Source: Pontiella desulfatans
Lineage (GTDB): Bacteria; Verrucomicrobiota; Kiritimatiellia; Kiritimatiellales; Pontiellaceae
Reading direction: 5' to 3'
Length of the DNA: 64,000 nucleotides
NCBI RefSeq assembly: GCF_900890425.1
Contig: NZ_CAAHFG010000002.1
Location: forward strand, 744,001-808,000
Shown here in pieces: positions 53,731 through 60,758 of this stretch (position 1 is the stretch's first letter; each line of letters opens with the position of its first letter). The notes beneath the pieces were generated by a model. It searched no databases. It worked only from the letters and a program-made list of their open reading frames with translations, and was not told the DNA's origin. The position numbers and the translations under genes were made by a program.

Positions 53731-53815
53731 GCGGGCGGATTATTTGACAGAATGATTTGGTGGCAGAATAATTTTGCGGCGCAGCCGCCCTGGAGCAACA
53801 GTGCTTAACAGCAAC

Positions 53816-54730
53816 CTAAATTTCAGCATTTTTAACGGCGGAGTTGGCGGCGATGAGCAACTTTCTCATGACCGCCGTAAGCGCGACCATTTTGGGGCGG
53901 TGGTTTTCATTTACCAGACGCTGGTAGAACTCGCGCAGAACGGGGTTGTATGTCCTGGCGTTCATGGCAGCCATGTACAGACAGGAGCGCAGCCTGCGCC
54001 TTCCTCCGCAGACATGCCGTCTGCCGGACTTGCCCCCGCTGTCCCGGTTGAAGGGAGCGAGTCCCGCCAGCGACGCGATCTCCCTGCGCGAAAGCGTGCC
54101 GATCTCGGGGAGATGGGCGAGCAGTGTCACCGCATTGACGATGCCCAGACCTTTGATGGACTGGATGCACTTGGCCTTCTTCGTCATGGTTGCGTCTTCG
54201 GCAAGGGTGTCAGTGATTTTCGCTTCGATTTTCTCGAGCTGCTTTTCAAGCCATTTGAGGTGCTGTTTGATCAGTCTGATCATCTCCGGCTCGTCGGCGG
54301 TTCCCAAGCGGTTCTTCTCGGCCGTATGCATGTCGCTCAGGTGCACCCTTCGGTCAACGAGAGCGGTGAGCCTACGCTGCGCAGAGGAAGGCTTCTTGGA
54401 CGGCTTGGGCTCGGTGTGCGACGCAAAGTCGCAAATCATCCGCGCGTCGATCGGGTCGGTCTTGGCGATCTGCCCCATGCCCAGCGCGAAGTGCCGGACA
54501 CGCGACGGGTTCACGATGCTCGCGGTGCCGTCGGCGGCCATCACCATCCAGGCGGCCATGCGTTCGTAGCCTCCCGTGGACTCGAAGACATAGTGGGCGT
54601 TGCCCGCCCAGTTCATAAGCGCCGTGGCACCCTCGCAGGTGTTGTCGAAGCGCCGCGCTGTTTTTCCATTGAAGGCGTCCAGATGCTTCTTGGAAACATC
54701 GACGCCGCAGTATACTTTTTCCATGTTCAT
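53816..54730 (-). CDS. IS110-family transposase (intact)
   Basis: The protein has 304 residues. The DEDD-type catalytic domain has YCGVDVSKKHL, FESTGGYERM and AKTDPIDARMI. The C-terminal transposase_20 domain reads SIKGLGIVNAVTLLAHLPEI and LAGLAPFNRDSGGKSGRR. No frameshift is seen, so it may be active. IS110 elements usually lack inverted ends, so its boundaries cannot be fixed from sequence alone; they probably lie near 53.76 and 54.85 kb. Confidence 0.88.
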   Translation of the reverse strand: MNMEKVYCGVDVSKKHLDAFNGKTARRFDNTCEGATALMNWAGNAHYVFESTGGYERMAAWMVMAADGTASIVNPSRVRHFALGMGQIAKTDPIDARMICDFASHTEPKPSKKPSSAQRRLTALVDRRVHLSDMHTAEKNRLGTADEPEMIRLIKQHLKWLEKQLEKIEAKITDTLAEDATMTKKAKCIQSIKGLGIVNAVTLLAHLPEIGTLSRREIASLAGLAPFNRDSGGKSGRRHVCGGRRRLRSCLYMAAMNARTYNPVLREFYQRLVNENHRPKMVALTAVMRKLLIAANSAVKNAEI

Positions 54731-55104
54731 ATTTGCTCCTACTTGCTAATGCGAGCTCGCTCGTACGGCTCATGCAACAGTTCGAGTTCAATATGGCAAC
54801 CATCCGGCGGATCCGGGCTCCAGGACGTTCGCCCAAGGCGAACCAGTGCGCGACGATCTCACCGGACGGGAACCTCTCCCGGCTGGCCGGCCGGGGGAGG
54901 CACTCCTCTACGAGGATTGCACAACCCCTTTCACGGGAAAAAGGATTTCTCCGACGCTATAGAAATTCATTCTCAAAATCCTTTTTCCCTACCTGTTTTG
55001 AGTTGGTTGGAAAACATACAAGTGCGCCGACGGCGTCGGCGCTTTCCGTTGTGCGGGCGGTTGAGGAGTTAAAAGACGGCCTGCCATGGGAGTTGAATGC
55101 CGAA
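54731..55104. other. Gene-free gap between IS110 and the integron
   Basis: It holds the probable IS110 left end and a perfect 9-bp-arm hairpin, GCGCCGACG-G-CGTCGGCGC, at 55024-55042. A plus-strand frame ending at 55116 (EELKDGLPWELNAEMTN) looks protein-like at its end, but has no recognisable start or family. Confidence 0.45.
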
Positions 55105-55127
55105 ATGACGAATTAGGCGGCCTGACC
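55105..55127 (+). repeat. Left copy of the 23-bp inverted repeat bounding the integron
   Basis: It is a perfect inverted match to 60311-60333. It contains the stop codon of the truncated integrase, so that gene ends at this repeat. Outside both repeats the flanks share TTGAAT followed by CGAA, a possible target duplication. Confidence 0.75.
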
Positions 55128-55472
55128 CTTTTTCTCGCAAGCCGAGAGCCGCCCTTCCCAGTCGTAGGCCGCCGGCCAGTCCAGTTCCGTCATTTCCAGA
55201 AACAGGATTCTGAGTGCGTAAATGACTTGGCGCAACTGCCAGACCTTAAAACCGGGCGTTCTGCCTAACACATCGAGATAGGAATCGAGATAGGCAGAAG
55301 ACACAGCGTTCAGTTTAAGCCCGTCCAGCCCATAAACGAACTCCTGCGCACGCCGCACATGCCACTCAGCATTTCGGCCGGAGACCCCGTATTTGGCGAG
55401 CTTCTCGGCATACTTGCCCCAGAACACCTGCTCTTTGCCCGACATTTTTCTTTTCACATGCTCTTTAGCCAT
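55113..55472 (-). pseudogene. intI: Truncated integron integrase (N-terminal domain only)
   Basis: A 119-residue frame has the N-terminal SAM-like domain of integron integrases: FWGKYAEKLAKYGVSGRNAE, then WHVRRAQEFV, then GRTPGFKVWQLRQVIYALRI. It ends at the left inverted repeat, before any catalytic Arg, His or Tyr. A full enzyme has about 320 residues. It points away from the cassettes, the normal layout. It cannot be an active recombinase. Confidence 0.75.
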
Positions 55473-55559
55473 GCATTCTACCTATCACATAAAAAAAGGC
55501 CTGTTAAGGAAATAAATAGGCAGATGCCGTTTCTGCCTAATCAACTGTTCGATTGAATA
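55473..55559 (+). promoter_or_regulatory. Presumed attI/leader region of the integron
   Basis: This AT-rich stretch lies between the integrase and the first cassette gene. GTTCGAT (55547-55553) is a plausible insertion point, since the cassette's own 3' box ends TTCGAAC (57246-57252). It also has an imperfect inverted repeat (GGCAGATGCCGTTTCTGCC). Confidence 0.45.
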
Positions 55560-57218
55560 ATGAAAAATAATACTAAACTAATCTTTTGGGCGGCATTAAT
55601 TCTCTTGCTCGTAAGCTGTACGCATTTTCCTTCATCCGAAGAGAATGAGCAGAAGTCTTCTACTGAAGATTTCACAGACGTCGCGCATGCGCTTGCTGTT
55701 TTTCAAGGCCCAGGCTCCGGCTTGAACGACAGCATTAAGGCAAAAAATTATCTGATAGAACATTCAGAAGAGTCCATCGATCCTCTATTAGAAATCGTAA
55801 AGACCAGAGATTACTCATGGCAGACGGCTGGTCATGCCTTGGCGAAGACTAAAAATGAAAAGGTTCTCTACACGTTTATAGAGTTACTTGCCGACAATCA
55901 TTTTGAAACAGAGGCAGACGGCTCCCGCAGGCTGTTTGCGAAAGGGGTTTCCTATGGAGGAAACATTGCTAAATTTTTAGGAAAAATGGGAGATGAAAGA
56001 GCGATCCAAGCTCTGAGGGATGCCGTTGATCAAGGCGACCATCAAGTCAGGTGGGCCGCAATAAAAGCCCTGTACTATCTGGGTGACCTCTCAATGGATC
56101 AGCTTTTTGAGATGGGAATAAATGAAGGATACCATTCTACCGGAACTGTTATTTTAGGTATCGCTTATGATGACAAATACTCTGATCCCGCTTATATCCT
56201 GACTGTTCTTGACCGTTTTATCGAAACTTTTCCTGAAGAGGAGTTCGAAGTAAGCTTAGCTCATGGGTATAAGGCGTACTGCTATGACTATCTTGGACAA
56301 TATCCAGAAGCCTTGAGAGAGATCGACGTAGTCTTCGAGAGGCAGGGATACCTATCGTCACCGACCAAAAAGCACAAAGAGCGAATCTGGAACAAGATGA
56401 TCGCGCCCCCCACCGCGACATGGAGCTATGTAAACGCCTGTGAAGGCGATGCTGAATGTAGCCTAAGCTTGAATATACTGTTTAAAACAAATGAGGTGAA
56501 AGTCTCCACCGCCTATACGTCTTTCTTTAAACCACACAACTATTCCGACACAGGATCGAACAGCACGCATACTTTATCCCAATTCCCAATTGAAACGGGC
56601 AACCCACAATCGAATGGTGACAATGAGACACTTGAGAAATCTCATTCATCTTTTTGCGTATCGGGTATTACTGAAACCGGTGTCGTTGTTCGAGTGGAGT
56701 TTGAATGCAGCTCGATAGAGGATGAGATTAGCTGCGATGTTGATCATAGCGTCCTTATTCCCTTTGGAGGAACCGGTCGCTGTAAAAAGGACGACGTACT
56801 ATATCGATGGAAATGGGAGAATCTAAAAACGCGTCAGAGTCCCCATTTTATCGCACCTATAGATGTACTGGTTGTTCCAGAAAAAAAGACCCCGGTTGAT
56901 GAAAAAGATAAAGCGACAGGACTCAAGCTTGTTGGTAGGTGGAAGGCAGTATTTGAGCCAAATATTCAAGTTATACACTGGTTTAAAGCCAATGGGGAGC
57001 ATGTCCATGAAATGTTGGGCGGTGACATGAAGATAGACGGGGTTTGGGAGGTCGTGGGAGATACGCTGCGAATCAAATCAGGTGATATAGTGCTGCTGGG
57101 ATCTAAACAGAAAAGCTCTACAACCTGGGTGGAACACAAAATCATCCATCTTTCAAAAGAAGAACTTCACACGCAACTGGAAGGTCGTCCTGTGGTCAAA
57201 TATGTCAGGATGAAATGA
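55560..57218 (+). CDS. Cassette 1: lipoprotein with HEAT-like repeats
   Basis: The protein has 552 residues. A lipoprotein signal (ILLLVSC) is followed by HEAT/TPR-like helical repeats (DPLLEIVKTRDYSWQTAGHA, DERAIQALRDAVDQGDHQVR). A beta-rich middle part and a C-terminal lipocalin-like domain come next (LVGRWKAVFEPNIQVIHWFK, WEVVGDTLRIKSGDIVLLG). The codon choice is AT-rich, unlike the chromosome. The function is unknown. It is the first gene of the integron array, one base after the leader region. Confidence 0.75.
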   Translation: MKNNTKLIFWAALILLLVSCTHFPSSEENEQKSSTEDFTDVAHALAVFQGPGSGLNDSIKAKNYLIEHSEESIDPLLEIVKTRDYSWQTAGHALAKTKNEKVLYTFIELLADNHFETEADGSRRLFAKGVSYGGNIAKFLGKMGDERAIQALRDAVDQGDHQVRWAAIKALYYLGDLSMDQLFEMGINEGYHSTGTVILGIAYDDKYSDPAYILTVLDRFIETFPEEEFEVSLAHGYKAYCYDYLGQYPEALREIDVVFERQGYLSSPTKKHKERIWNKMIAPPTATWSYVNACEGDAECSLSLNILFKTNEVKVSTAYTSFFKPHNYSDTGSNSTHTLSQFPIETGNPQSNGDNETLEKSHSSFCVSGITETGVVVRVEFECSSIEDEISCDVDHSVLIPFGGTGRCKKDDVLYRWKWENLKTRQSPHFIAPIDVLVVPEKKTPVDEKDKATGLKLVGRWKAVFEPNIQVIHWFKANGEHVHEMLGGDMKIDGVWEVVGDTLRIKSGDIVLLGSKQKSSTTWVEHKIIHLSKEELHTQLEGRPVVKYVRMK

Positions 57219-57245
57219 GTGAAAAACCACTAATAGAAAAGAAAA

Positions 57246-57332
57246 TTCGAACCAGATCCTAGACCCTACTTGGACAACGCCCGTTTTGAAGGCAACGTCT
57301 ATTTCCCAAGCGGGTCAGGATTAACGTTGGAA
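57246..57332 (+). repeat. attC site 1
   Basis: TTCGAAC (57246-57252) and GTTGGAA (57326-57332) are the outer boxes. Between them ATCCTAGACCC and GGGTCAGGAT pair except for one extra A, and CTTGG/CCAAG forms the inner stem. This is the extrahelical-base pattern of attC. The centre CTACTTGGACAACGCCCG is shared with attC 3. Confidence 0.75.
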
Positions 57333-57340
57333 ACAGATAG

Positions 57341-57925
57341 ATGAAACAACTAATCCCATTCTTAGCAATTGTTATCTTAACGGGCTGTGCTGGCCCAATG
57401 GATTATGTTTCTCCGGGACTCCAAGTTGTCGGGAGGTTAAACCAGACAAATATTTATGCGACTCAGCCCTATGACTATCGTCATATGAAACGGATTTTGG
57501 ATGAATCAAATACTGAAGAAGAAAATCACAGACCAAAAGAACCCGTCGAAATATCAGAAAACGGAGAATTTGAGATTAACGTATATGGGTTTAGAAGAGG
57601 TGGTTTATTTTGGATTCTTCCACCGCTTGGAGGAATTGGGTTAGATTACAAAGCAGAAGTTATTATTGAAGTAGAGGGGCAATCTCCCAGAGGAATTGTC
57701 ATGGGAAAGAAACCCGAAACTTACATTTATGACCCTGAGCAAAAAAAGGTTGTTAGAGATGTCTCAGATTTCATTCAAGTTGTTTCAGTATCAAAGACAG
57801 AAAGAACGGAGCCCTTCCCGTGGAGTGAAGACAAAAAAGAAATTGTGGATAAATTAACAATTAAAATAAAAGATTTCCAACCAGTGAATTCACATGTACC
57901 AGTTAAACGCGGCGAAATTTATTGA
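57341..57925 (+). CDS. Cassette 2: small lipoprotein
   Basis: The protein has 194 residues. A lipoprotein signal (FLAIVILTGC) precedes a mixed domain (FEINVYGFRRGGLFWILPPL, VIIEVEGQSPRGIVMG). The last codons run through the 5' half of its own attC. The family is not recognised. The codon choice is AT-rich. Confidence 0.65.
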   Translation: MKQLIPFLAIVILTGCAGPMDYVSPGLQVVGRLNQTNIYATQPYDYRHMKRILDESNTEEENHRPKEPVEISENGEFEINVYGFRRGGLFWILPPLGGIGLDYKAEVIIEVEGQSPRGIVMGKKPETYIYDPEQKKVVRDVSDFIQVVSVSKTERTEPFPWSEDKKEIVDKLTIKIKDFQPVNSHVPVKRGEIY

Positions 57926-57977
57926 TGAGGCAAAGCCGTTTGCGCGTTTAACTGGCCAGTGATTCTGGTCGTTGGCA
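57875..57977 (+). repeat. attC site 2
   Basis: TTCCAAC (57875-57881) matches the complement of this cassette's own 5' end (TTGGAA at 57327). CCAGTTAAACGCG and CGCGTTTAACTGG make a perfect 13-bp inner stem. GTTGGCA closes it at 57971. The cassette therefore spans 57327-57971. Confidence 0.8.
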
Positions 57978-57994
57978 TGACATAAGAAAAATAC

Positions 57995-58381
57995 ATGGAA
58001 GAAGCATTAACATCTGAACCTTTCACAGTATGGGGATTGATATCCTCAGCTGGAATATTTGGTGCGATAGTAATTCTTATCTCAAGCCTATTGATCATAG
58101 TCAGCACAATTGGATTAATCTCCAACAGATCAAAATCGAAATTCTATCAGTGGATTCTCGGAGTAATAGTTAAGTTCAACTTATTGTCAGCCACCATTAT
58201 TTTTACAGCAGGAATCATAAAATTCATTGTGATTAGTCAGACAGCAATGTGTTTTCATTATCATAGTTATTTGAAGGAACTATTGATGGGAATTCACATT
58301 CTATTGCTCACAGCCTTAGTCGCTTTCGGTATAAAAACTTTGAGTTCAATCAAACAGAAATTTTGCCAACCAGAACATTGA
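57995..58381 (+). CDS. Cassette 3: small membrane protein
   Basis: The protein has 128 residues with three likely membrane spans: FGAIVILISSLLIIVSTIGL, LLSATIIFTAGIIKFIVI and GIHILLLTALVAFGI. No family is recognised. The stop lies within its attC site. Gene cassettes often encode small membrane proteins like this. Confidence 0.6.
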   Translation: MEEALTSEPFTVWGLISSAGIFGAIVILISSLLIIVSTIGLISNRSKSKFYQWILGVIVKFNLLSATIIFTAGIIKFIVISQTAMCFHYHSYLKELLMGIHILLLTALVAFGIKTLSSIKQKFCQPEH

Positions 58382-58453
58382 GCCTACTTGGACAACGCCC
58401 GATAAATTCGGTCAACGTTTAATTCCCAAGGCGGCTCATGTTGAACGTTCGAG
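58364..58453 (+). repeat. attC site 3
   Basis: TGCCAAC (58364-58370) is the complement of the cassette's 5' end (TTGGCA at 57972). GAACATTGAGCC and GGCTCATGTTGAAC pair with one extra T, and CTACTTGG/CCAAGGC gives the inner stem. GTTCGAG closes it at 58447. Cassette 3 spans 57972-58447. Confidence 0.82.
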
Positions 58454-58461
58454 AAAATAAA

Positions 58462-59994
58462 ATGAAAACAATAAAGCTATTAGCAATACTGCCATATCTC
58501 GTAATCACAACAATTGCCTCAGAATTATCAGAACCAGACTTAAGCCTCAACATTCGCTGTAATGAAGGAGAAGTTATCCTTGCGGGCAACTCCAATACCA
58601 ACTTTGAGTATTTCATATGCTCATCCAGCAACTTGACCGAGTGGTGTGTTCTCAACGAACACAAATCACCAACAAACGGCCTTTCAGAAATCTCAATAAC
58701 CAAACCTCTTTCAAACCAAGCATTTTTCAAAAAAACAGTTGCGTCTGTGAAAGATATTGCATTCGTTACAACAGGGAATGCTGATATTTCAACAGGAGCA
58801 ATTAGAAAGGACGGCTACTCACTTTTCGTAGTATCGACTGATAATTCATCTGGTGAGGCATTATTCACTACCCCCGATGGATCAGGAGCCTTGATAGCTT
58901 ACAACGAGAATGGACTTCCTGAAACATTAACCACAGATAAGTATGTTTTCTACTTCACGAACTGGAGAAGTGACTCTGCTGATGTGTATTGCATCTCAAA
59001 CGGAATTGTTTTGGAAACTTGTTATAATGTTCCCGTTGATGAAGCACTCATTGAACAAGCACAAGAACTGACAGCTGACATCCCCCAAACAATGCTTACC
59101 CTTGCCTCTCAGCAGAACTCATCTAATCTTGATGAATTTCAAAAGAATCTTTCGATTGCAGGGACTGCCGCAAGCACGGGGATTTGCATAGTAAGCACCG
59201 CTGCAACAATTGGTTCATGGGGAACCTCATCAGGGATTACAGTCCCTGTTGCGGCAGTTTCATGCACAAGTGCAGTACTTGATATTACAGCACTAATTAC
59301 AGAAAATCGCTGGATTGGTCGAGCAAGTACTGTTTGGTCTGCAACTACTGCCTTTATCAATCCCGGCGGATGGGCAACAGCGACCGCATCAGCAATCGGT
59401 TTTGGAAATTCTTTGCTAGGGGAGTACCTAAATGGGGCTACAGACGCAAGAGATGCAATTGAAGAGATAGAGAATAATTATGGAACCGAATTTAAAGGAA
59501 TTACATTCCCTCTTGGACTTGCGAGCTTCGCCGACAGAGTAATCTCGTATAATCCAAGTTACTCTGGCGGAGCAACACCCACTGAACCTACATCTATGAA
59601 TGAACAATCAGCAATTGGCTCCCCTGATCATCCGGGAGGAATTAGCCCGGGTAGCGTTGCTTTGGGATCAGGAGGAAGGATTGTTTTAAAGTTTACAGAT
59701 AATTATCTACTAGGTAGCGATAGCAGCGCCCCAGATCTATATATTTTCGAGGTAGGAAGTAATGTTGAGGATACATTTGTCGAAATAAGTAGTAATGGCT
59801 CTACTTGGCACTCCGTTGGGAAAGTCTACGGAGGAACCTCGTCAATTGATATTGATAGTTATGGTTTTTCATCAAGCAATACATTTAGCTATGTTCGACT
59901 AACTGATGACCCCAATGAGGGCGGCAACACAGGGACGTGCGTTGGAGCAGACATTGATGCAGTAGGCGCAATATCTTCTACTAGAAGAAACTAG
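58462..59994 (+). CDS. Cassette 4: secreted protein with hydrophobic middle and C-terminal beta domain
   Basis: The protein has 510 residues. A signal peptide (MKTIKLLAILPYLVITTIAS) leads to a beta domain with YFICSSSNLTEWCVL. A middle Gly/Ala-rich hydrophobic region follows (about 230-320: AASTGICIVSTAATIGSW, VPVAAVSCTSAVLDITALI), resembling pore-forming or membrane-inserting segments. A C-terminal galactose-binding-like domain ends it (GSGGRIVLKFTDNYLLG, STWHSVGKVYGG). The start at 58462 is chosen because the upstream ATG at 58438 lies inside attC 3. Confidence 0.65.
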   Translation: MKTIKLLAILPYLVITTIASELSEPDLSLNIRCNEGEVILAGNSNTNFEYFICSSSNLTEWCVLNEHKSPTNGLSEISITKPLSNQAFFKKTVASVKDIAFVTTGNADISTGAIRKDGYSLFVVSTDNSSGEALFTTPDGSGALIAYNENGLPETLTTDKYVFYFTNWRSDSADVYCISNGIVLETCYNVPVDEALIEQAQELTADIPQTMLTLASQQNSSNLDEFQKNLSIAGTAASTGICIVSTAATIGSWGTSSGITVPVAAVSCTSAVLDITALITENRWIGRASTVWSATTAFINPGGWATATASAIGFGNSLLGEYLNGATDARDAIEEIENNYGTEFKGITFPLGLASFADRVISYNPSYSGGATPTEPTSMNEQSAIGSPDHPGGISPGSVALGSGGRIVLKFTDNYLLGSDSSAPDLYIFEVGSNVEDTFVEISSNGSTWHSVGKVYGGTSSIDIDSYGFSSSNTFSYVRLTDDPNEGGNTGTCVGADIDAVGAISSTRRN

Positions 59995-60068
59995 CTCGAA
60001 CAAAGCGTTCCACAACTATTTCTCACCGCGCAAACGCGGCGAGAAAAGTGTGAACGCACACGTTAGCA
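59995..60068 (+). repeat. attC site 4
   Basis: CTCGAAC (59995-60001) is the complement of cassette 4's 5' end (TTCGAG at 58448). The stems GCGTTC/GAACGC and TTCTCACCGCG/CGCGGCGAGAA surround a CAAA loop. GTTAGCA closes it at 60062. The cassette spans 58448-60062. Confidence 0.82.
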
Positions 60069-60091
60069 AATAATAAAATAGGAAATACATT

Positions 60092-60235
60092 ATGAAAAAA
60101 TTTACCACACTAAACGAAGTAGCAGAGGCCATTGATGATCGTGGGTTCTCAGTTGTCGATCCCAATGGAGTCTCTCTTTACATTTTTTCTGAAAGAGATC
60201 CATCTGAAGAATTCAAACAATACTACAAAAACTAG
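60092..60235 (+). CDS. Cassette 5: 47-residue protein
   Basis: A short frame begins MKKFTTLNEVAEAIDDRGFS and ends FKQYYKN. AGGAAATACATT lies just before the ATG, a good ribosome site. It fills the last cassette. The product is small, acidic and without membrane spans. Its position between two attC sites is the main support. Confidence 0.6.
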   Translation: MKKFTTLNEVAEAIDDRGFSVVDPNGVSLYIFSERDPSEEFKQYYKN

Positions 60236-60279
60236 CCGAACCAGCTTGACCCTACCGAAAAAGGGGTCAGCCGATGAAT
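60235..60279 (+). repeat. Decayed attC site 5
   Basis: GCCGAAC, then GCTTGACCC paired with GGGTCAGC through one extra T, retains the attC pattern. The closing GTT is replaced by GAT at about 60273, so the site is probably no longer recombined. It marks the end of the array. Confidence 0.5.
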
Positions 60280-60310
60280 CTTAGAATCAAGGATTATTGA
60301 AAGGACAAAT

Positions 60311-60333
60311 GGTCAGGCCGCCTAATTCGTCAT
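60311..60333 (-). repeat. Right copy of the 23-bp inverted repeat
   Basis: It is the exact inverted copy of 55105-55127. Together they enclose 5.2 kb: the integrase fragment, all cassettes and the decayed attC. Its inner side follows cassette 5 by about 30 bp. Confidence 0.75.
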
Positions 60334-60758
60334 ATTGAATCGAAGCCCAGCATTACCCTGCTGCACTGCGTTCAAGACACGAAAGCCCCCGCTCCGTTGG
60401 AAGCATCCATGAGGCCGGATTCGGCAAATGGGTCAGAGTACCTGGGTAGATGCAAAAGATCACGAGCGGTTTTGGGGGCGCGGTGGTTGCCCGTTCGGCG
60501 GGGCAGGCGGGACGCCTGCGGTACAGCAAGTGGCGCGTAAGCGTGCGGTGGTATTTCCCCGACGGGGGCCAGAAAGCCCCCGCTCCGTTGGAGCCGCCCA
60601 TCGATCCTGTCCATCAGGTAATTCGGGCAGAACACGACTAGCCGATGCTTTGGGGCACGGGATGAACTCGCGCCAGCGGACGAGGCCGGATTCGGCGGGG
60701 CAGGCGGGACGCCTGCGGTACGGCAAGCGGCGCGTCGGCGGGGCGGAAGTTTGTCCGG
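60334..60758. repeat. Repeat-rich spacer
   Basis: No gene is visible. Two copies of the covarying hairpin lie at 60503-60519 and 60700-60716. Each continues into GTAC, GCAAG and GGCGCGT. A 'GCCCCCGCTCCGTTGGA' unit also occurs twice, at about 60385 and 60580. Confidence 0.6.

Follow-up and report, generated by a model that had tools for sequence, protein, structure and literature searches.

The stretch between positions 55134 and 60257 of the DNA analysed here, a 64-kb window of the Pontiella desulfatans genome (G000:C2:744001-808000; Kiritimatiellota, 8.66 Mb, 6 contigs), is a real integron cassette array. It comprises four attC sites and half of a fifth, and stands on a perfectly conserved copy of an attI site. 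Positions without a contig prefix are window coordinates, and C, L and G designate contigs, extracted loci and genomes, respectively. The first-pass annotation of this DNA had read it as an integron array, correctly so. In this genome it represents one among five attI copies and one of 20 attC clusters. The same annotation called the integrase broken, which is true in cis, but an intact integrase of the same kind is found 177 kb away. We consider it fairly probable that the window array is a satellite attI platform without an integrase of its own, which arose by copying of the resident integron and is filled in trans by the intact integrase. The AT-rich character first ascribed to the array against a GC-rich chromosome is borne out: the five 1-kb bins of 55001-60000 have a G+C content of 0.38-0.48, against 0.505-0.645 for the remaining 59 bins. 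The parts of the array are the following:

55134-55472, minus strand: 5′ fragment of the integrase gene intI, codons 1-113 of 460; the frame continues to 55113 through a repeat (119 aa)
55517-55549, plus strand: attI, with the palindrome TAGGCAGA-N7-TCTGCCTA at 55517-55539 and the crossover G/TT at 55547-55549
55548-57326, plus strand: cassette 1, HEAT-repeat protein of 552 aa (55560-57218; Pfam HEAT_2), attC1 57246-57332, end rule 6/7
57327-57971, plus strand: cassette 2, open reading frame (ORF) of 194 aa (57341-57925) with a lipoprotein-like start by eye, attC2 57875-57977, end rule 7/7
57972-58447, plus strand: cassette 3, ORF of 128 aa (57995-58381), membrane-protein-like by eye, attC3 58364-58453, end rule 7/7
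58448-60062, plus strand: cassette 4, ORF of ~515 aa (listed as 58438-59994, 518 aa), attC4 59995-60068, end rule 7/7
60063-60257, plus strand: truncated cassette 5, ORF of 47 aa (60092-60235), 5′ half of an attC, end rule 4/7

The 29-bp core of the attI site (55519-55547) occurs at exactly 5 genome sites with 0 mismatches and at none with 1-3 (control 0), namely in the window, in the intact integron on the same contig, and at C1:4118775, C1:4289453 and C3:1198778. One of these copies adjoins the intact intI; the four others, the satellites, have an intI cut at codons 77-113, retaining codons 1-113 in the window and about 1-106, 1-94 and 1-77 elsewhere. Window positions 55134-55554, which hold the intI 5′ end and attI, are 100% identical over 421 bp to the intact integron, and the other three satellites are 98.6-99.5% identical over 303-399 bp. 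All five attI copies diverge at the G/TT crossover, each into a different cassette.

The intact intI (C2:975560-976939) encodes 460 aa and reaches 409 bits with TIGR02249 (C2:975563-976492; cut-off 265); as matches below the cut-off were present in all 14 control genomes, only those above it were counted. An alignment to IntI4 of V. cholerae (2a3v) spans residues 152-458 of the protein and takes in the stretches HTLRHSFATHLL and ELLGHADVSTTMIYTH. The Pfam SAM-like domain begins at residue 150, and the preceding ~150 residues have no Pfam match. In the scenario that we favour, a piece of this integron, made up of attI, the leader and the 5′-terminal 339 bp of intI, would have been copied to a new place, and cut on the intI side next to a repeat resembling repetitive extragenic palindromes (REP). 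The copied attI would then carry cassettes of its own. We infer that the intact integrase acts on the satellite attI copies, its gene being the most likely source of the enzyme that loads and reshuffles the window array and the others in trans.

What remains of intI in the window ends before the catalytic residues, as annotated; indeed, it stops far before them, lacks any canonical integrase domain and has no Pfam match. The window encodes at most the extra N-terminal domain of IntI, which structural modelling suggests is likely a second core-binding domain. AlphaFold, given eight sequences with the 119-aa window frame as query, predicted a helical domain (predicted local distance difference test, pLDDT, 86), the best aligned chains of which are tyrosine-recombinase core-binding domains. 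With VIA-align the model superposed on 2a3v_B with a Z of 10.5 and a root-mean-square deviation of 3.6 over 100 residues, and 26 of the top 27 rows were recombinase or integrase chains by title. Foldseek gave nothing at E ≤0.001 (best 0.52), its top 12 rows, all above that value, being tyrosine recombinases. This assignment is likely and not proven, because such a Z can be due to chance for helical folds. We disfavour the idea that the fragments are kept as a free-standing N-domain protein, because the shortest copies end before the predicted domain is complete and the reading frame of some is broken. A second integron integrase over the cut-off, at C1:1467546-1468271 (330 bits), is split over two frames; its locus (L056:7544-8487, C1:1467543-1468486) belongs to another clade and has its own attC array and adjoining repeats.

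The four attC sites lie where the first-pass annotation had placed them, two being recovered by a covariance model and two by a strong bottom-strand fold. The model was built from 11 attC of G000, two of them window sites. In the alignment of these 11 attC, 92.6% of the stem cells are paired and 13 of the 22 pairs show changes on both sides, values that 0/500 shuffles equalled; with slid structures only 24-44% are paired, and the count of further pair types was reached by 39/500 shuffles. Scores below threshold at all four sites had been named as the outcome that would speak against an integron. Instead attC1 and attC3 match at 97.5 and 90.2 bits, respectively, scores that are partly by construction because these two are among the seeds. 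The other two, attC2 and attC4, are of other attC types and are missed by the model, so that for this half of the window sites recognition of the paired, covarying stem comes from folding only. The bottom-strand folding proposed at first pass is convincing for these two (z −3.95 for attC2 and −5.32 for attC4, 0/200 shuffles as good for each); it does not single out attC1 and attC3 (z −1.57 and −2.10), for which 17 and 6 of 200 shuffles were as good. At the supposed decayed site (60235-60279), an attC runs only as far as ~60257, which leaves its 5′ half, and the remainder is a dispersed repeat, not a decayed attC.

The ends of the cassettes are consistent with one another. We scripted the end rule, namely that the R″ of an attC matches by complementarity the 5′ box of its own cassette, at 7 positions over the five attI-bearing arrays: it is exact in 11 of the 15 cassettes, where shuffles gave a mean of 1.27 and 0/10,000 reached 11. 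Window cassettes 2, 3 and 4, for which this agreement had already been noticed, are exact throughout, and a single mismatch is seen in window cassette 1 and in cassette 2 of the intact integron. In L038, cassette 1 scores 2/7, and by eye a group II intron end replaces the attC start. Having at least two attC and no integrase nearby, the array is a CALIN (cluster of attC sites lacking integron-integrases). Compared with a complete integron, only intI codons 1-113 stand beside attI in place of a functional gene, and attI itself is recognised by sequence and crossover position only.

Several observations weigh against our interpretation. No cassette is common at the DNA level among the five attI arrays, that of the intact integron included, and there is therefore no direct trace of movement in trans. 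The inter-array matches of ≥120-130 bp comprise the intI′-attI stretch, insertion-sequence DNA, repeats, attC-spanning pieces and part of cassette 1, one stretch of which is 65% identical in DNA between the window and L038. The proteins of these two cassettes are 49% identical and form the only family seen shared among attI arrays, in a comparison that left out cassette 1 of the intact integron. A sixth, older attI in L163 (72% similar over 158 columns) has almost no intI′, so platforms decay. Finally, window cassette 5 violates the end rule. The satellites could instead be passive intI′-attI copies still bearing the cassettes resident at the time, the parent having turned over since and no insertion taking place now. 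This alternative, which we regard as possible but on the whole unlikely, would explain the different first cassettes without trans activity. It agrees with the failure to see a cassette moving between attI arrays, and with what is seen by eye at the right-hand limits of four satellites (window, L038, L039 and L040), where the last cassette has no complete attC, as would hold for fragments copied with their cassettes. However, cassette turnover would have to be both complete and fast, as the window equals its parent over the 421 bp and the two intact integrons of a relative, G032, show ~2 differences in 1470 bp, and neither near-identical pair shares a cassette among matches >120-150 bp in the stretches compared. 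It is very improbable that an independent integron at the window locus simply lost most of its integrase in place, given the identity to the intact copy, the existence of four truncated copies of the same gene with different cut points and repeats at their ends, and the lack of a near-identical C-terminal piece among the matches listed for the own genome.

A further proposal, compatible with the others, concerns the vehicle and involves the flanks of the array:

53796-55020, unstranded: IS110-family insertion within the left flanking repeat; transposase 53816-54730, minus strand (NCBIfam NF033542, 199 bits)
55021-55127, plus strand: left outer repeat, a flank common to other copies, ending in the 21-bp repeat GACGAATTAGGCGGCCTGACC at 55107-55127
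60258-60410, unstranded: right flanking repeat; second 21-bp repeat at 60311-60331, minus strand, inverted relative to the left one

The 21-bp inverted repeats could delimit a transposable unit in which the array travelled, a REP-associated (Y1/HUH) transposase being responsible for the movement. Indeed, 12 of the 26 genome copies of the repeat (up to 3 mismatches; control 0) lie <3 kb from an attC or attI, where random draws gave a mean of 0.46 and a maximum of 5 in 5000 draws. The repeats flank both sides of 4 of the 20 attC clusters (window, L038, L040 and C4:55k; L042 as well if the 21-mer copy at 856642 is counted). Furthermore, one of the 19 Y1_Tnp matches of the genome immediately follows the intact array, where there are GGGGTCAG repeats that the 21-bp repeats resemble. 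Against this, the copies of the repeat are not independent draws, and the 21-mer resembles a REP by its look, on which this identity rests. The intact integron is without these 21-mers, as are 11/20 attC clusters; the outer flanks are themselves repeats common to several loci, and no target duplication was seen by eye at the array ends. We find such a vehicle improbable, less so than decay in place. The Y1 transposase behind the intact array (RAYT-like; L037:10816-11829) comes straight after its final attC, with GGGGTCAGTCCTCGG repeats around it.

On the intI side, the window and L038 run directly from intI into the 21-bp repeat (CCCTTTTT border), at different intI points. L038, L039 and L040 extend up to the inverted repeat on the cassette side, and the window array stops at another GGGGTCAG repeat, 53 bp short of the inverted one. 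The same IS110 element lies in the outer flanks of three loci (window, L038 and L051); L040 and L041 have the left flanking repeat without it, their alignments skipping from 53795 to 55021. A second element, whose ORF is IS110-like by eye, is adjacent to the intI′ piece in both L039 and L040 (L040:6754-7785). Stretches of the right flank are 98.4% and 91.4% identical in L041 and L042, respectively, and 60258-60386 is 98.4% identical to a site on contig C4. No empty site was found, the right-hand neighbour (glycyl-radical activase) being only 55% identical in the best relatives.

The arms of the attI palindrome recur within intI near nt 174 and 205, and are retained in the window fragment:

55260-55298, unstranded: pair of 8-bp words in intI′, TCTGCCTA at 55260-55267 and TAGGCAGA at 55291-55298, the same words as in the attI palindrome

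In 529 kb of G000 sequence the 8-mer has 22 occurrences, 19 of which fall in the five platforms, 2 in L163 and 1 elsewhere. A script found the inner words in G000, G005 and one G018 copy (TAGGCAG/A) and in G032 (TAGGTCGC). By eye, the first attI word is repeated as the second inner word in G000, G005, G033 and G035 (CAGA), in G032 and G042 (TCGC) and in G031 (CCGA), with one base changed in G039 and the broken G018 copy and two in G008; agreement is poorer for the other two words, and G033, G035 and G042 have an imperfect attI palindrome. The words persist in the reading-frame-broken copies L186, L210 and L205. For the more distant integrases L108-L112, L114 and L138, no recurrence of an attI word within the gene was detected by script, and the RNA fold of intI′-attI is no better than that of shuffles (z −1.13, 14/100 as good). 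The joint change between species of the words in attI and those inside the gene, in CAGA, TCGC and CCGA classes, can be followed at the window, L037, L181, L106, L107, L148 and L151; L183, a satellite of G032, has two inner words that are unlike attI yet mutually paired (TAGGCCGC/GCGGCCTA).

An N-domain search over 43 genomes of the order matched 14. C-side contig-edge matches (G001:C184 and G037:C18) and matches reaching a full integrase being excluded, ten truncated intI copies whose end can be read (four in G000, two in G018, and one each in G032, G005, G028 and G033) end at about codons 72, 77, 77, 82, 86, 94, 106, 106, 113 and 115-119. The G033 copy (C89) runs off its contig on the 5′ side. 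This pattern is contradicted by two fragments, of which G023:C333, likewise cut 5′ by a contig edge, extends to about codon 208, and G018:C22 comprises codons 86-179 and has no attI. C-terminal-only intI fragments exist in relatives, and G028:C222 (L205) has an intI with an internal deletion (codons 3-86 and a foreign insert, then 440-460) beside an attI-like palindrome. We read the words common to intI′ and attI as putative DNA sites required at the platform. As those in attI and in intI (~nt 174-213) change together, a functional attI would extend ~210 bp into intI, and this would explain why the ten copies end at codons ~72-119 and none earlier. Taken one step further, this leads to the tentative and rather doubtful picture of a distributed integron, with one intact integrase acting on dispersed platforms in which attI and the first ~70 intI codons would be kept as DNA, not as protein.

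The multiplication of attI is not restricted to G000. In G032, all three attI copies have different first cassettes; two have an intact intI (99.86% identical over 1470 bp) and the third an intI truncated to about codon 106. Its intact integrons, C1:536355 and C1:2638244, lie on opposite strands of one chromosome, a natural duplication. In G021 (P. sulfatireligans, same genus) there are two intact integrons 99.1% identical over 1353 bp, an attI without intI (L177) and an intI′ piece departing before the crossover (L179), the first cassettes of the attI copies again being all different. The amplification of attI is therefore recurrent in the order, and not a single-genome freak. As for attC, G000 has at least 44 attC-like sites at E up to 1 and at least 43 at E 2e-4 or better, 11 of them model seeds; these are lower bounds, because 150 of the 3544 first-look candidates were scored. 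The 43 sites form the 20 clusters when split at gaps >10 kb, and attC-like sites were found in 44 of the 57 relatives searched (45/58 with G000). The statement that integrons are not commonly reported in such genomes thus fits the papers found and not the genomes.

A multi-platform arrangement like the one observed here, with its presumed use in trans, was not found described in the literature searched. Insertion at attG places cassettes at chromosomal positions without an integrase gene. It would not, however, bring along attI and 231-339 bp of intI. PMC12444791 names attG integration of cassettes at secondary sites, says CALINs are mobilisable in trans by a functional IntI, and reports scattered CALINs and truncated intI in Xanthomonas. 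The window array shares with CALINs an attC array without a working integrase in cis; it differs in having, as at three further places, a perfect attI core and an intI 5′ end, both copied from an intact integron that this genome also contains. With the sedentary chromosomal integrons of the V. cholerae/Xanthomonas type, the system has in common an IntI4-family IntI, attI and attC cassettes, but it shows several scattered platforms instead of one, short arrays, and an integrase with an extra N-terminal part of ~150 residues without Pfam match. Integrons typically have one attI, close to the integrase, and attI is poorly described outside class 1, according to the IntegronFinder 2.0 paper (PMC9024848), from which the words Kiritimatiell, Verrucomicrobia and Lentisphaerae are absent. 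By the same paper IntegronFinder does not detect attI outside class 1 integrons, and other cases may therefore have been overlooked. Older surveys (PMC2426708 and PMC3108266) name Planctomycetes. Our searches returned no paper with both Pontiella and integron and none for a duplicated, second, secondary or orphan attI, and the papers naming Kiritimatiell- and integron present, in the excerpts available, no integrons of these genomes. Five attI, four of them without integrase, would enlarge the space for new cassettes and separate the enzyme from its landing sites. Platform copying would be an origin of CALINs besides decay, and the words common to attI and intI would offer a direct handle on what defines attI in this lineage.

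Some minor observations complete the description. No Rfam family matched in the window at gathering thresholds, and tRNA genes, considered as targets, were not found there. In 55120-55620 a scan blind to other promoter types found no sigma-70-like promoter as candidate cassette promoter (Pc), and the single terminator-like hairpin is the attI palindrome read towards intI. A defence function of the cassettes was considered and not retained: 5 of 6 proteins had no model match, and the weak match of window cassette 4 (LeoBC, E 0.0033) was not credited. A 1469-bp segment in L038 and L042 was rejected as a shared cassette and is read as an insertion sequence, because it has ~11-bp flanking direct repeats, inverted ends and a transposase-like ORF (by eye, with no family search). 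The attI-less clusters L041 and L045 have a common 557-bp stretch, 81.5% identical. At L038:7228-8553 an ORF resembling a reverse transcriptase by eye precedes an attC without its start, and similar DNA ends before attC in L053 and L163, an arrangement like that of group IIC-attC introns, which would be the putative family here. At L044:8119-8220 (C4:463118) another 21-bp repeat is followed directly by the second half of an attC and a cassette-like ORF, an additional fragment bounded by such a repeat, which the attC model did not pick up. The attC-like sites at C2:4115 and C2:1372506, near both ends of contig C2, are perhaps one array cut by assembly.

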